A stretch of DNA of 25,213 nt, from the IMG/VR virus record IMGVR_UViG_3300047510_001738, positions 1-25,213 of that record. The stretch is one strand, 5' to 3'. The notes under the pieces were generated by a model. The model did not search any database, had not been told where the DNA came from, and saw only the letters and a program-made list of their open reading frames with translations. Made by a program: the position numbers and the translations under genes. Source of the DNA: a virus. Below, in pieces: positions 1,968 through 16,749 of this stretch (position 1 is the first letter of the stretch; each line of letters starts with the position of its first letter).

Positions 1968-3440
1968 TCAATAACCCACGTCTGCGTCCAGCACGCCGTA
2001 AGCCACGACCGGCGTGGCGCGATTGCGCTGCAGCCGGCTCACTCCTTCTTCGTGCGTCTTGGCAAAGCGCCGCATCATCAGCGCGTAGCGCGTCGCTGCC
2101 ATCAAATCGTCGCCGTCTTTCACGATCAGCCCGTCCTTGCGGTGGTACAGGCGGAACTCCTCGAACCAGTCCTGTAGGTGGGCAAACACCCGCAGTCGCA
2201 TGGTCTGCATGCGGGTAAGCATCTCGGCGATGCCCGCCTCCACGCCGTTGCTGCCGTCCTCAAACGTGGCGCGGTTCTTCAGCATGGCCAGCCCTTGGCG
2301 GCGGTACTGGTCGGCGATCTGTTCGCCCGACCCCTTATCCCGTTGCAAACCGTCATGCGGCCACGCGACTGGAATCCAGTCGCCGCGCGCCTTGATGCCA
2401 GCGGCGTGGATGGCGATCGATTGGTCCTTCACTCGGTAGGCGTCGGTGATGTAGACGCTGTCGGTGTCGCGGTCCCAGGCCATCCAGACGGCGGCGGTGG
2501 GGTGGTCAATCCCGAAGTCCAGCCCGACGATGCGCGGCCAGTGGGGCGGGATTGGAAAGGCTTGGCACTTGATCGCCTCTTCGGCGATGGGGAACACGCG
2601 GCCACTGCCCAGGATCGGTATGCCCTTGGCGCGGGCCTCGCGTTCGTGTTCCGGGTAGCTGGCGATGATCGCTGCCCGCTGTTCCGGGGTGTAGTGCTCC
2701 GCGTCCTCAATCGTCATGTTCGTGACGACCGTGCCCTCGGGCTTGTCCAGCAGGTAGCGCTTGACCACCTCGGACATCCCCAGCAGCGGAGTGAAGGTCA
2801 CAAACACCAAGCCCCCCGTGGCGTTGGTGCGGGTCAGGCCCTCAGTGTAGATGGGCATCGGGGGTTCTTCATCGAACCAGACCAGATCCACCGTGTCGGC
2901 CTGCCACTTGGAGCGGCCTTGGTCGTAGCTGTTGAACTGGATGACGCTGTCCTCGCCACACACATGGCGCACCACGGCGGAGCTGATAGCGTCGGGTACG
3001 CCAGCCTTCATGCTGGTGTCGCGCAAAGCGTCGTGCGGGATGGTGCCCGTGCCCCACTCTTCCCGCAGCTCGGGCGGGCCGATGAGCAAGCGTTGGATGC
3101 CCTTGCGCGTGAGTTCGGCCGACTCCGAGCCGCACATCGCCCGCACGGCATACGGAAAGCGCCGCCCGGTCCACCAGCTCGGGTAGCGTCCGGTCAGGTG
3201 CATAGCGAGTTCGTAGGCGCCGGCCCAGGTCTTGCCGAGCTGGTTACCGGCCATGAACAGGCGTTCGCGGTAGTGGCTGCCCACCTCGTGGAACTCGCGC
3301 TGCCGGGTGTAGGGCGCGTACGCTTGCAGCCGGTTGCGTCGGGCGCGCACGTCCTTCACGCGCAGCAGCTCGTACAACTCGCGCTTTTCCTCCTCGCCCA
3401 GCGCGGAGAGGTCCAGCTTGGCTAGGTCGGCGAAATTCAC
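1968..3440 (-). CDS. Terminase large subunit
   Basis: This 490-residue protein is the ATP-driven DNA-packaging motor and nuclease. The N-terminal ATPase carries a Walker A (MAGNQLGKT, residues 63-71), a Walker B with catalytic glutamate (VDLVWFDEE, 184-192) and a coupling motif (TFTPLLG, 215-221). The C-terminal RNase H-like nuclease has its first aspartate in GLDFGID (306-312), then PHDG (361-364) and DDLMAATRYAL (444-454). All key residues are present, so it should be active. The start is a GTG at 3440-3438 that overlaps the small terminase stop as GTGA, which argues for translational coupling. The residues around Walker A recall the terminases of BcepC6B/BPP-1-like podophages, from memory only. 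Confidence 0.96.
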   Translation of the reverse strand: MNFADLAKLDLSALGEEEKRELYELLRVKDVRARRNRLQAYAPYTRQREFHEVGSHYRERLFMAGNQLGKTWAGAYELAMHLTGRYPSWWTGRRFPYAVRAMCGSESAELTRKGIQRLLIGPPELREEWGTGTIPHDALRDTSMKAGVPDAISSAVVRHVCGEDSVIQFNSYDQGRSKWQADTVDLVWFDEEPPMPIYTEGLTRTNATGGLVFVTFTPLLGMSEVVKRYLLDKPEGTVVTNMTIEDAEHYTPEQRAAIIASYPEHEREARAKGIPILGSGRVFPIAEEAIKCQAFPIPPHWPRIVGLDFGIDHPTAAVWMAWDRDTDSVYITDAYRVKDQSIAIHAAGIKARGDWIPVAWPHDGLQRDKGSGEQIADQYRRQGLAMLKNRATFEDGSNGVEAGIAEMLTRMQTMRLRVFAHLQDWFEEFRLYHRKDGLIVKDGDDLMAATRYALMMRRFAKTHEEGVSRLQRNRATPVVAYGVLDADVGY

Positions 3441-3892
3441 CGGGCCGCCTTTGAGATGAGCGCGGCAAGGCGCTGGTCAAGCTGGTCGTTGGTGAGCTCA
3501 AGCGAGCCGGACATCTTGACTTCGACGGCTTTGAGCTTGGGCTGCGTGTACTGCAGCAGCTCGTTAAGTGTGCGCAGCCGGGTATCGGGATCGACGCGGT
3601 CAACCATCACCGGGTTGCCTTGCTCGTCCAGCACGGGCGCGCCGGAGCGGTCCATGACGATGACCTTTTCCTGCAGTGCGCGCAGGATCTCTACCGCGGG
3701 ATCTAACCCGGCGTCGATGCATGCCTCGGCCACGGCTTTGAGGTTGATGCGCCCAGGCTTTTTCGACATGACTTGCCGGGCGTGGGTGCGCCCAGTCAAT
3801 GCCCCTGCCGACTCAAGGTCCGCAGCGCTGGCCAGTTGCGGCGGCGCGCCGGCTAACTCCGCCATGCGCGCCGGTCGGGTCCGGTCAACCAT
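3437..3892 (-). CDS. Terminase small subunit (putative)
   Basis: A 151-residue basic/acidic protein immediately upstream of, and overlapping by GTGA, the large terminase; in this position it is expected to recognise the packaging site and load the motor. Residues 42-75 (MSKKPGRINLKAVAEACIDA...) could form a helical DNA-binding region, the middle holds a short acidic turn (VLDEQGNPVMVDRVD), and the C-terminus is helical and ends in KAAR. I start it at the ATG 3892-3890 with GGGAAGG upstream, although the internal ATG at codon 42 (around 3769) could be the real start and would give a 110-residue protein. Assignment is by synteny plus general shape, not by a diagnostic motif. Confidence 0.72.
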   Translation of the reverse strand: MVDRTRPARMAELAGAPPQLASAADLESAGALTGRTHARQVMSKKPGRINLKAVAEACIDAGLDPAVEILRALQEKVIVMDRSGAPVLDEQGNPVMVDRVDPDTRLRTLNELLQYTQPKLKAVEVKMSGSLELTNDQLDQRLAALISKAAR

Positions 3893-3897
3893 GGCGT

Positions 3898-4104
3898 TTA
3901 GACCTTCCCGGGGATGACGCCGCCCTGGAAGCCGGGCACGTTTTGCTTCATGCCGCCCTTGTACTCCGGCTGCGTGGCGTTCGTGCCGGGCAGGGGAACG
4001 GACACCTTCGACGGCAGCGTACCGGCGCCTTGAGTCTGGTTGCCGCCTACCTTGCCCGCGGCGATGGATACGTTGCGAGATTTGGGGTTGCTGTAGTCCT
4101 GCAT
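3898..4104 (-). CDS. Small phage protein of unknown function
   Basis: A 68-residue Gly/Pro/Gln-rich protein (starts MQDYSNPKSRNVSIAAGKVGG, ends GVIPGKV) that looks largely unstructured. I chose the ATG at 4104-4102 because a GGAG ribosome site sits six bases before it; the frame stays open upstream to 4182, but that extension would run into the hairpin region. It is the first gene of the leftward late operon, five bases before the small terminase gene. Small disordered proteins often precede terminase in phages, but no function can be assigned here. Confidence 0.6.
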   Translation of the reverse strand: MQDYSNPKSRNVSIAAGKVGGNQTQGAGTLPSKVSVPLPGTNATQPEYKGGMKQNVPGFQGGVIPGKV

Positions 4105-4150
4105 GATGTTCTCCAGGGTTTGCGCCTGCTGGCGCGGGTTGAAATTTGCA

Positions 4151-4170
4151 AAAAGTCCTGATGAAGGACT
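4151..4170 (-). terminator. Short terminator-like hairpin facing the late genes
   Basis: Read leftward, AGTCCT-(5)-AGGACT (4170-4154) is followed by TTTT. The stem is only 6 bp, so termination would be weak. It lies about 50 bases upstream of the first late gene and forms a series with the hairpins at 4180-4233 and 4509-4536. Confidence 0.35.
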
Positions 4171-4179
4171 CGAATTCAG

Positions 4180-4233
4180 CACAAAAGACCGAGGCCCGCT
4201 GCGGCTTTACCCCGGAGCGGGCCTCGTTTTGTG
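4180..4233. terminator. Strong intrinsic terminator, probably bidirectional
   Basis: A perfect 11-bp GC-rich stem, CGAGGCCCGCT (4190-4200) with AGCGGGCCTCG (4216-4226), has a 15-base loop. It is flanked by complementary A and T runs (CACAAAA at 4180-4186, TTTTGTG at 4227-4233). Rightward the T run follows at once; leftward it follows after three bases. It lies downstream of the 4248-4484 gene and before the late operon. Confidence 0.8.
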
Positions 4234-4247
4234 CAGTTTTTGTGCAG

Positions 4248-4484
4248 TCAGCGCATTAAATTCGGGTTTGCCGGCCGCGAGGCGGCCTCTTCGTTCCACA
4301 TTGACGCGGCGTCAAGTTCGGCCGTGTCGGCGGCTTGGCCGGGTTCCTCGGGCTGCTCGCCTCTGAGCATGTCACCCAGATATTCTAGGCATTCGTCCAC
4401 GCTCTGGCACTGATAAACCTGCTCGCCGTCAACACTGACCACTGAGCCGCCCGCGTCGTCGATCTCAATCGTGATTGTCTTCAT
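4248..4484 (-). CDS. Small acidic protein of unknown function
   Basis: A 78-residue acidic protein beginning MKTITIEIDDAGGSVVSVDG, which suggests two short beta strands, followed by a helix (SVDECLEYLGDMLRG) and a disordered Glu/Ala/Pro tail. An AAGGAG ribosome site precedes the ATG by ten bases. It stands alone between two terminator hairpins (4509-4536 before it, 4180-4233 after it), so its transcription may depend on read-through or on the attenuator-like hairpin in its leader. I do not recognise the family. Confidence 0.65.
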   Translation of the reverse strand: MKTITIEIDDAGGSVVSVDGEQVYQCQSVDECLEYLGDMLRGEQPEEPGQAADTAELDAASMWNEEAASRPANPNLMR

Positions 4485-4508
4485 CGCTGCGCGACTCCTT
4501 AAAAATGC

Positions 4509-4536
4509 AAAAAGCCGCTCGGAAAGCGGCTTTTTT
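4509..4536. terminator. Intrinsic terminator / attenuator before the 4248-4484 gene
   Basis: AAAAAGCCGCT (4509-4519), a 5-base loop, and AGCGGCTTTTTT (4525-4536) form a symmetric A-stem-T hairpin that can work in both directions. On the leftward strand it is followed by TTTTTGCATTTTT and, only a few bases on, by the AAGGAG of the 4248-4484 gene. A leftward transcript from the 4.6 kb promoter region must therefore pass it before reaching any gene. Confidence 0.8.
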
Positions 4537-4626
4537 GGTGTTTTGGATACGGATTGATCCGCTCAAAGCGTACACCCACACCGTTTGCCCCGTCAAGCGC
4601 ATAAGTACCGCTGTTTTTATTACTTT

Positions 4627-15091: not shown

Positions 15092-15340
15092 ATGCAAGAC
15101 GAAAAGCAAACCCAGCCGCCAATTCTCAACATGCAGATGACGCCTGCCGGCATTGAGCTCGCCATTGCCGCGCTGCGCAAGCTGCCCCATGAGCAGGTTG
15201 ACCCGCTCGTACAAGAACTGTGGGCGCAGTACAAGCAGCAGATGCAGCAACTGGTTGAGGTCGTGAAGACCGCGCCGGACGGCATCATTGATGCCACCCC
15301 CACCACTACTAGCGAGGTCGGCTCTGCCGAGTTGTGGTGA
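15092..15340 (+). CDS. Small phage protein of unknown function
   Basis: An 82-residue protein (MQDEKQTQPPILNMQMTPAG...) with a long helix from about residue 20 (IELAIAALRKLPHEQVDPLV and on to QQMQQLVEVVKTA) and a flexible Thr-rich tail. AAAGGAG precedes the ATG by seven bases. Its stop overlaps the methyltransferase start. No function assigned. Confidence 0.68.
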   Translation: MQDEKQTQPPILNMQMTPAGIELAIAALRKLPHEQVDPLVQELWAQYKQQMQQLVEVVKTAPDGIIDATPTTTSEVGSAELW

Positions 15341-16749
15341 GGTTTCTTAGCATCTGCAGCGGCATAGAAGCCGCATCGGTGGCGTGGAAGCCGTTGGGCT
15401 GGAAGGCGGTTGGATTTTGCGAGATCGAACCGTTTCCTGCTGCGGTCTTGCGGCACCACTACCCGGAGGTGTTGAACTTTGGGGACATGACCCAGCTGGT
15501 TGACCTGCTGGGCATGGGGTTAATTGAACTGCCGGACCTGCTGTGCGGCGGGACGCCGTGTCAGGCATTTTCGGTGGCGGGTTTGCGTCGGTCTCTTGAG
15601 GACGAGCGCGGCAACTTGTCACTCGTTTTTTGTGAGATCGCCAATGCAATCGACAAACATCGCGCTGCAGCCGGACTTGTTCCCGGAATCGTCTTTTGGG
15701 AAAACGTCCCCGGAGTTCTCAACACCAAAGACAACGCCTTTGGATGCTTTCTGGCAGGGCTTGCCGGTGAAGATGGTGAGCTCCAGCCACCAAGGGGCAG
15801 GTGGGAGAACGCTGGTTGTGTGTATGGTCCCGAAAGAGCAGTCGCGTGGCGCATCCTCGACGCCCAATATTTCGGAGTGGCCCAACGACGCCGCCGTGTG
15901 TTCGTTGTCGCAAGTGCTCGAGACGGGTTTGATCCCGCCGCGGTTCTTTTTGAGTTCGACGGCCTGCGCCGGGATTCTGCGCCGAGCCGAGAAGCGGGGC
16001 AAAGAGTTGCCAATGCCCTTACGGATCGCGCTGACCGCGGTGGCACAAACAGCGAAGGGCAGCGACTGATCACGCAACCCTACGCCGTCGCCAACTGCCT
16101 GACCGCGCGGATGCACAAGGGCATCAACAGCACGCTGGATGAGGGGCAGACGCCGGTGGTGACGCACTCCCTGCGCGGCGAAGGCTTCGACGCCAGCGAG
16201 GACGGCACGGGGCGGGGGACGCCGTTGGGGCCGGTGCAGCCGTACACACTGGCGCTACGCGGGCGCGAAGGCTTGCCGCAACTTGAGTACCGTCAAGACG
16301 GCACAGCAAATGCGCTGCTGACGCCGAACGGAGGCCGGGGTGGCATCGGCGTGGGTGCCATCGCCTTCCACCCCACGCAAGACCCGATCAGCAGCGCCGA
16401 TGGCACAACGCACGCCAACGGCGGCGGGCAGATGGCGGTAGCGTTCACGACTGAGCAAACGCCAAAGTTTAACCATGACCAAGCGCTGACGCTCACCAAG
16501 CAGTCACCGACCGGCGGTGGGCAAGTTCAGTCGGTGATGACCGCAATGCAAGTGCGCCGCCTAACCCCAGTCGAGTGCGAGCGCTTGCAGGGCTTCCCCG
16601 ACAACTACACCGCCATCCCGTGGCGCAAGAAGCCCGCCAGCGAATGCCCTGACGGCCCGCGTTACAAAGCACTGGGCAACTCATGGGCGGTGCCAGTGGT
16701 GCGCTGGATCGGGGCGCGCATTGAAATGCATCTGGCGGGGTTGCTATGA
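15337..16749 (+). CDS. C5-cytosine DNA methyltransferase
   Basis: A 470-residue enzyme that transfers a methyl group from S-adenosylmethionine to cytosine C5. Motif I is RFLSICSGIEAASVAW (residues 2-17), the catalytic loop GGTPCQAFSV has Cys75, motif VI is WENVPGV (121-127), motif VIII is QRRRRVFVV (183-191), and motifs IX-X are RRLTPVECERLQGFPDNY and YKALGNSWAVPV near the end. About 200 residues between VIII and IX, rich in Gly, Thr and Asn, would be the target-recognition part. The start is GTG, either 15337 (overlapping the previous stop as GTGA, giving MRFLSIC, the usual N-terminus) or 15334. It likely protects phage DNA from host restriction. A second long frame is open inside it (15644-16069). 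Confidence 0.93.
   Translation: MRFLSICSGIEAASVAWKPLGWKAVGFCEIEPFPAAVLRHHYPEVLNFGDMTQLVDLLGMGLIELPDLLCGGTPCQAFSVAGLRRSLEDERGNLSLVFCEIANAIDKHRAAAGLVPGIVFWENVPGVLNTKDNAFGCFLAGLAGEDGELQPPRGRWENAGCVYGPERAVAWRILDAQYFGVAQRRRRVFVVASARDGFDPAAVLFEFDGLRRDSAPSREAGQRVANALTDRADRGGTNSEGQRLITQPYAVANCLTARMHKGINSTLDEGQTPVVTHSLRGEGFDASEDGTGRGTPLGPVQPYTLALRGREGLPQLEYRQDGTANALLTPNGGRGGIGVGAIAFHPTQDPISSADGTTHANGGGQMAVAFTTEQTPKFNHDQALTLTKQSPTGGGQVQSVMTAMQVRRLTPVECERLQGFPDNYTAIPWRKKPASECPDGPRYKALGNSWAVPVVRWIGARIEMHLAGLL
15644..16069 (+). CDS. Possible embedded gene inside the methyltransferase (second frame)
   Basis: In the +1 frame relative to the methyltransferase, an ORF is open from at least 15524; from the ATG at 15644 it encodes 141 residues. 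The protein starts MQSTNIALQPDLFPESSFGK, has NISEWPNDAAVCSLSQVLET near the middle and FFLSSTACAGILRRAEKRGK towards the end. I remember this last signature (ETG-x-x-P-x-R-[FY]-x-L-S...ACAGILRRAEKRGK-x-LP) as recurring in annotated phage proteins next to cytosine methyltransferases. It overlaps methyltransferase residues about 103-245, including motifs VI and VIII. No strong ribosome site is seen. It is either true dual coding or a shadow made stable by conservation of the methyltransferase. Confidence 0.42.
   Translation: MQSTNIALQPDLFPESSFGKTSPEFSTPKTTPLDAFWQGLPVKMVSSSHQGAGGRTLVVCMVPKEQSRGASSTPNISEWPNDAAVCSLSQVLETGLIPPRFFLSSTACAGILRRAEKRGKELPMPLRIALTAVAQTAKGSD

Follow-up and report, generated by a model that had tools for sequence, protein, structure and literature searches.

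A second gene appears to be encoded inside the C5-cytosine DNA methyltransferase (MTase) gene of a viral DNA of 25,213 nucleotides (positions 1 to 25,213 of IMG/VR record IMGVR_UViG_3300047510_001738; hereafter the window), on the same strand and in the +1 frame. Taken as a whole, the best explanation, to which we assign a probability of about 0.6 on sequence comparison, is that this is an overprinted gene encoding a nested subunit of the MTase. That a selected same-strand overprinted gene is nested in this subfamily of phage C5-MTases, whatever its product does, seems to us almost certain. What is new is that the C-terminal domain of the inner product matches, by profile comparison, the canonical segment that follows motif VIII in C5-MTases and that is missing from the main frame. 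The initial annotation, which had pointed out the overlap, had not anticipated that the inner domain would look like a part displaced from a C5-MTase. The inner gene is widespread and essentially unannotated, phage P1 dmt included, and we found no description of the overlap in phage C5-MTases in the open-access literature, although one may exist elsewhere.

Constraint on the overlap and its distribution

The initial annotation described a +1 frame open for about 180 codons (15524-16069) over MTase motifs VI and VIII. The coordinates of the open reading frame (ORF) confirm this, and both of the peptides it quoted are found in the +1 product. The stops of 84 homologues cluster ahead of the inner ATG, at residues 16-39 of the 181-codon frame, and are very scarce at residues 40-175. 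As this group had been picked by similarity in the inner frame, further sets were built independently: set A, relatives close to the window gathered with MTase codons 1-100; set B, of Firmicutes type, gathered with the N-terminal stretch ending about at the inner start; and set D, a third clade, gathered with codons 3-122, which partly overlap its own +1 ORF and not the constrained domain. Almost every complete member of the three sets has the +1 frame open, at GC contents down to 0.35, with an open span that begins at codon 105 in set B and extends to codon 193 in set D.

Within the inner C-terminal domain, third-position divergence of the MTase frame was 0.174, 0.137 and 0.179 in sets A, B and D, compared with outside minima of 0.491, 0.504 and 0.393. 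The ratio of position 3 to position 1 was 0.73, 0.43 and 0.57 (outside minima 1.09, 1.54 and 1.62), and the frequency of identical codons at conserved amino acids was 0.873, 0.865 and 0.840 (outside maxima 0.506, 0.484 and 0.620). The outside values are those of 206-342 same-sized windows beyond the overlap, and these counts are descriptive rather than p-values because the sequences are related. Such constraint in three clades favors the conserved overprinted pair, one of the two readings offered in the initial annotation, over the other, a shadow frame; with the synonymous sites constrained, the overprinting reading stands. The N-terminal half of the inner product is less constrained, with synonymous identity of about 0.55-0.73, and no constraint is seen at set B codons 169-180.

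The constraint also has the form of a coding frame. At set B codons 217-228 the inner positions 1, 2 and 3 diverge by 0.187, 0.119 and 0.471, and identity is greater in the +1 frame (0.794) than in the main frame (0.464). Mean identity in set B is 82% for the +1 frame, which has no stops, and 64% for the main frame; the other four frames are stopped in 19-100% of sequences. Antisense ORFs were considered as the source of the constraint and rejected in set B, where two of the three antisense frames are stopped in 57-96% of sequences and all three have identity below that of +1. ORF length was likewise rejected as evidence: when the synonymous codons of each MTase are shuffled, long +1 ORFs arise too, the longest averaging about 109 codons against observed medians of 151.5 and 134, with p<=0.01 in 8 of 121 genes. 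What exceeds chance is the cross-species conservation of the +1 product, the frozen synonymous sites and the kept start codon.

That start codon is ATG in 63 of 64 members of set A and 67 of 70 of set B, where two more have GTG. At this point almost every MTase has the codon AAT or GAT, compared with an Asn codon usage elsewhere in set A of 71% AAC. Upstream, set B carries GAA-ATG-AGG-TG, in which the Arg codon is AGG in about 98% of cases (14% gene-wide), 8 nt before the ATG. The set A site, where the Glu codon is GAG in 93% (55% gene-wide), is far less pronounced than set B's GAAATGAGGTG. Both sets have their own ATG together with a Shine-Dalgarno (SD)-like site, a putative ribosome-binding site that is strong in B and weak in A.

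Searches by tblastn with the +1 product returned 160-196 phage records, depending on query and cut-off, and 532 plasmid records, and the P1 version of the inner frame was matched in 493 of 5426 E. coli genomes. The phages include P1-like, Vibrio, Caulobacter, Mycobacterium, Streptococcus and Ruminococcus phages, among others. At every locus whose DNA was read the match was the +1 frame of a C5-MTase, and homologues were confined to the same overlap at the 84 loci, at the 80 best bacterial loci and in sets A, B and D. Of at least 575 bacterial loci, the 80 best contained no free-standing homologue, nor did a sample of 299 genomes; one candidate from that sample, a 77-aa copy (L477), was rejected as a truncated remnant. 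A Mycobacterium phage N-terminus served to gather 76 usable MTases, of which 72 have the inner domain in no forward frame; the bacterial MTases of 13 genomes lack it as well, prophage-like ones excepted. Since most other C5-MTases lack it, the +1 frame is no general by-product of C5-MTase sequence. The initial annotation had set two observations together against overprinting, confinement of all homologues to the overlap and a lack of extra synonymous constraint; the first is what we find, and the second is clearly false.

The inner domain and the segment past motif VIII

The predicted structure of the inner product has three helices (residues 88-94, 105-118 and 124-138), with a predicted local distance difference test score (pLDDT) of 72-88 for about residues 101-140 and mostly below 60 in the N-terminal part. 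Sequence searches of Pfam, NCBIfam and the PDB with the inner product gave no convincing match, no known relative was found for its N-terminal half, and a structure search with the model gave no PDB match below E=2. The only viral match of the structure search at E<=0.001 was a protein annotated as a cytosine methyltransferase. In a Bacteroides phage MTase the look-alike of the inner domain sits in the main frame, and in Dcm and its relatives the look-alike segment lies about 20-40 residues past motif VIII.

Aligned with hhalign, the inner domain and the canonical segments gave a probability of 96.2, an E-value of 2.3e-9 and a score of 50.3, compared with 13.7 for the best of 30 column shuffles and 9.6 for the reversed profile. 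Clade by clade, sets B and D were strong (E 1.9e-10 to 5.4e-6). All these E-values, the pooled one included, are for single comparisons chosen after the likeness had been seen, and they leave ample room for correction. A hidden Markov model (HMM) of the canonical segment had no match among 195 main frames, but in +1 it matched all 70 sequences of set B and 60 of 61 in set D. As far as profile comparison can tell, the inner C-terminal domain corresponds to the canonical segment between motif VIII and the remaining target-recognition domain.

The main frame has both the conserved motifs and the fold of PF00145. It matches that Pfam family at E=3.6e-38, phrog_116 at E=3.4e-88 and also TIGR00675, and its AlphaFold2 (AF2) model aligns with M.HhaI at Z=25.8. 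Residues 214-350 of this model, the region relevant to the missing segment, are of low confidence.

A proposed nested subunit and its alternatives

In the model that we propose, the canonical segment would have been lost from the main chain and be made separately off the same DNA, so that one stretch would carry, in two frames, two consecutive pieces of a single enzyme. The inner protein would have its own start codon and, in at least one clade, its own ribosome-binding site; it would be small, its N-terminal half poorly ordered and its C-terminal domain helical and conserved. This small protein would bind the MTase as a nested subunit and supply or regulate its DNA-recognition side. The overlap with motif VIII could have arisen by a deletion with a frameshift and then a compensating shift; given that the inner domain overlaps motif VIII and the canonical segment lies further downstream, a single frameshift would be insufficient as its origin. 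We put the subunit role of the inner protein at even odds. More tentative, and a little below even, is the specific arrangement in which motif VIII lies in frame 0, the next canonical segment lies in +1 and the displaced piece rejoins the enzyme in trans. We infer three things: expression of the inner protein, its association with the MTase, and a necessary or modulating part in methylation.

P1-like plasmids with exchanged recognition regions keep the ...ACAGILRRAEARGRKLPEMLEMAL domain in the +1 frame, and their main frame diverges. In L593 and E. coli P1-like plasmids, dmt versions with different recognition regions switch about half-way along the inner domain, their matches to the P1 inner ORF ceasing at base 421.

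It should be considered that a number of observations weigh against the nested subunit. Since every catalytic motif, IX and X among them, is kept by the main frame, the MTase might function unaided. About 20 residues separate motif VIII from the canonical segment that follows it, whereas the inner domain shares its DNA with that motif, and their likeness could have arisen by convergence. Set A, the window's own clade, is weak in hhalign when taken alone (E 0.002 and 3e-4), and the canonical-segment HMM matches the +1 frame in only 4 of its 64 members; its likeness to the canonical segment relies on its relationship to sets B and D. A start codon for the inner frame is settled in sets A and B and not in set D, and two near-complete genes (L170 and L380) have a +1 stop where the MTase frame is intact.

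The alternative that best survives, although we think it unlikely, is an overprinted gene that serves a separate purpose, such as that of a regulator or an anti-restriction protein, which would not act jointly with the MTase and whose likeness to the enzyme would reflect convergence or mere origin. Overprinted genes of phages often code for unrelated accessory proteins, and both the retention of every catalytic motif in the main frame and an N-terminal half with no known relative would suit such a gene. However, the inner gene was never seen apart from the MTase gene at the loci examined, and the inner segment is precisely what the main frame lacks.

Far less probable is a programmed +1 frameshift, by which the inner domain would follow the MTase N-terminus in one chain, as its C-terminal tail, and internal initiation would play no part. 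An SD-like site can also stimulate frameshifting, and in phage FP_Toutatis (L085, 2126-2731) a one-base shift does join the MTase N-terminus to the inner frame. Yet the conserved element is the start codon, with GTG replacing ATG in two cases, and no slip site, and the Toutatis fusion may stem from sequencing or decay. That Toutatis stretch is annotated as two methyltransferase genes.

A shadow, in which the +1 frame is open and similar merely through conservation of the MTase protein, is very improbable. Every homologue maps to the overlap and the ORF length is unexceptional under codon shuffling, both of which fit a shadow, but the synonymous sites are frozen, the codon-position pattern is reversed, the +1 frame is better conserved than the main frame in set B, and other C5-MTases lack it. 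The suggestion in the initial annotation that a widely annotated family might be such a shadow is contradicted by the frozen sites. Nor is it at all likely that a nucleotide-level element (RNA structure, or a junction for recognition-domain swaps) freezes the sites: the conserved stretch of P1-like dmt does stop where the recognition region is exchanged, but the freeze has the codon periodicity described above for set B codons 217-228.

Nested genes of this kind have a precedent in M.EcoHK31I, whose beta gene lies wholly within the alpha gene in another frame and where methylation requires both proteins. M.EcoHK31I and M.AquI are two-polypeptide C5-MTases, the former with its conserved C5-MTase elements divided between a large and a small polypeptide, and fragments of other C5-MTases complement each other (PMC3404938). 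The pair described here resembles M.EcoHK31I (and M.EaeI) in that C5-MTase elements would be spread over a large and a small chain, as read here from sequence, with an element missing from the large chain carried by the small chain in the other frame. The small subunit of M.EcoHK31I carries motif IX, whereas here the main frame keeps motif IX and the post-VIII segment falls to the small product; we therefore do not file the pair as an M.EcoHK31I-type member, but only as one that may work similarly. The inner gene, unlike that of M.EcoHK31I, is spread over phages of many phyla.

In M.AquI the break lies in the variable region, and the same split is seen in L298 and L164; unlike M.AquI, the usual layout here is nested and the main frame complete. 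In L298 (+ strand, 2119-3607) and L164 (+ strand, 2808-4541) the main frame stops early and the inner frame runs through the recognition region and motifs IX-X, leaving motifs I-VIII to the large chain and the segment, the recognition region, IX and X to the small one. This layout may be natural or a sequencing (frameshift) error. The segment past motif VIII of E. coli Dcm-type enzymes aligns with the inner domain, but it is part of a single chain and the Dcm +1 frame is not open.

If the nested subunit is real, many phages, the model phage P1 among them, would gain a conserved gene that is overlooked by gene finders and databases or filed there as the enzyme itself. Assays of these MTases from the annotated frame alone might then lack a partner, or unknowingly include one. 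The overlap would be unusual in that its second product would seem to be a part displaced from the enzyme it overlaps and no novel protein, and it would suggest a route to the split MTases of restriction-modification systems.

Annotation and gene context

According to the initial annotation the two peptides recur in annotated phage proteins. This finds partial support: 69 of 92 inner products have a match to phrog_16143 (139 aa, labelled 'DNA methyltransferase'), the best at E 5.1e-11, and gp104 of phage Thibault is annotated, though the window's own product reaches only E=0.29 with phrog_16143. The name of phrog_16143 appears to stem from the overlapping gene. In Mycobacterium phage Thibault (L562, 539-2340) an HNH endonuclease gene interrupts the MTase gene, and the annotated gp104 is the inner frame.

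Table 1. Features of the MTase gene and of the inner frame in the window.
Feature	Coordinates	Strand	Remarks	Basis
C5-cytosine DNA MTase, main frame	15334..16749	+	471 aa; GTG start at 15334 or 15337	
+1 open frame of the initial annotation, TTG to stop	15524..16069	+	181 codons	
Possible weak ribosome-binding site GTGAG	15632..15636	+	7 nt 5' of inner ATG	sequence
Overprinted inner gene (probable)	15644..16069	+	141 aa from ATG; start kept among relatives	
N-terminal part of inner product	15644..15877	+	moderate constraint; low-confidence structure	
MTase motif VI (ENV)	15700..15708	+	in overlap	sequence
C-terminal domain of inner product (WPNDAAVCSLSQVLETGLIPPRFFLSSTACAGILRRAEKRGKELPMPLRIALTAVAQ)	15878..16048	+	strongest synonymous constraint; resembles canonical C5-MTase segment past motif VIII	
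MTase motif VIII core (QRRRR)	15883..15897	+	same DNA as start of inner C-terminal domain	sequence
MTase motif IX (RRLTPVECERLQGFP)	16555..16599	+	beyond overlap	sequence

Two divergent inner ORFs were also seen. The one in L449 (minus strand, from 1501) is longer, starts near motif IV (MDQLTFLSEEPPAK...) and has a weak domain match (E=0.0027); it may be a further branch. The other, in the MTase of L478 (1263-1803, minus strand), ends in LPCIETGEVSEKYFLSQNAATGILRR. The window MTase (15334-16749) is also matched at E=4.6e-51 by phrog_864, whose label is DNA primase and whose profile is probably fused or mislabelled. Its neighbours in the window are phage replication genes, namely those for an exonuclease, a single-strand binding protein and a DNA polymerase.
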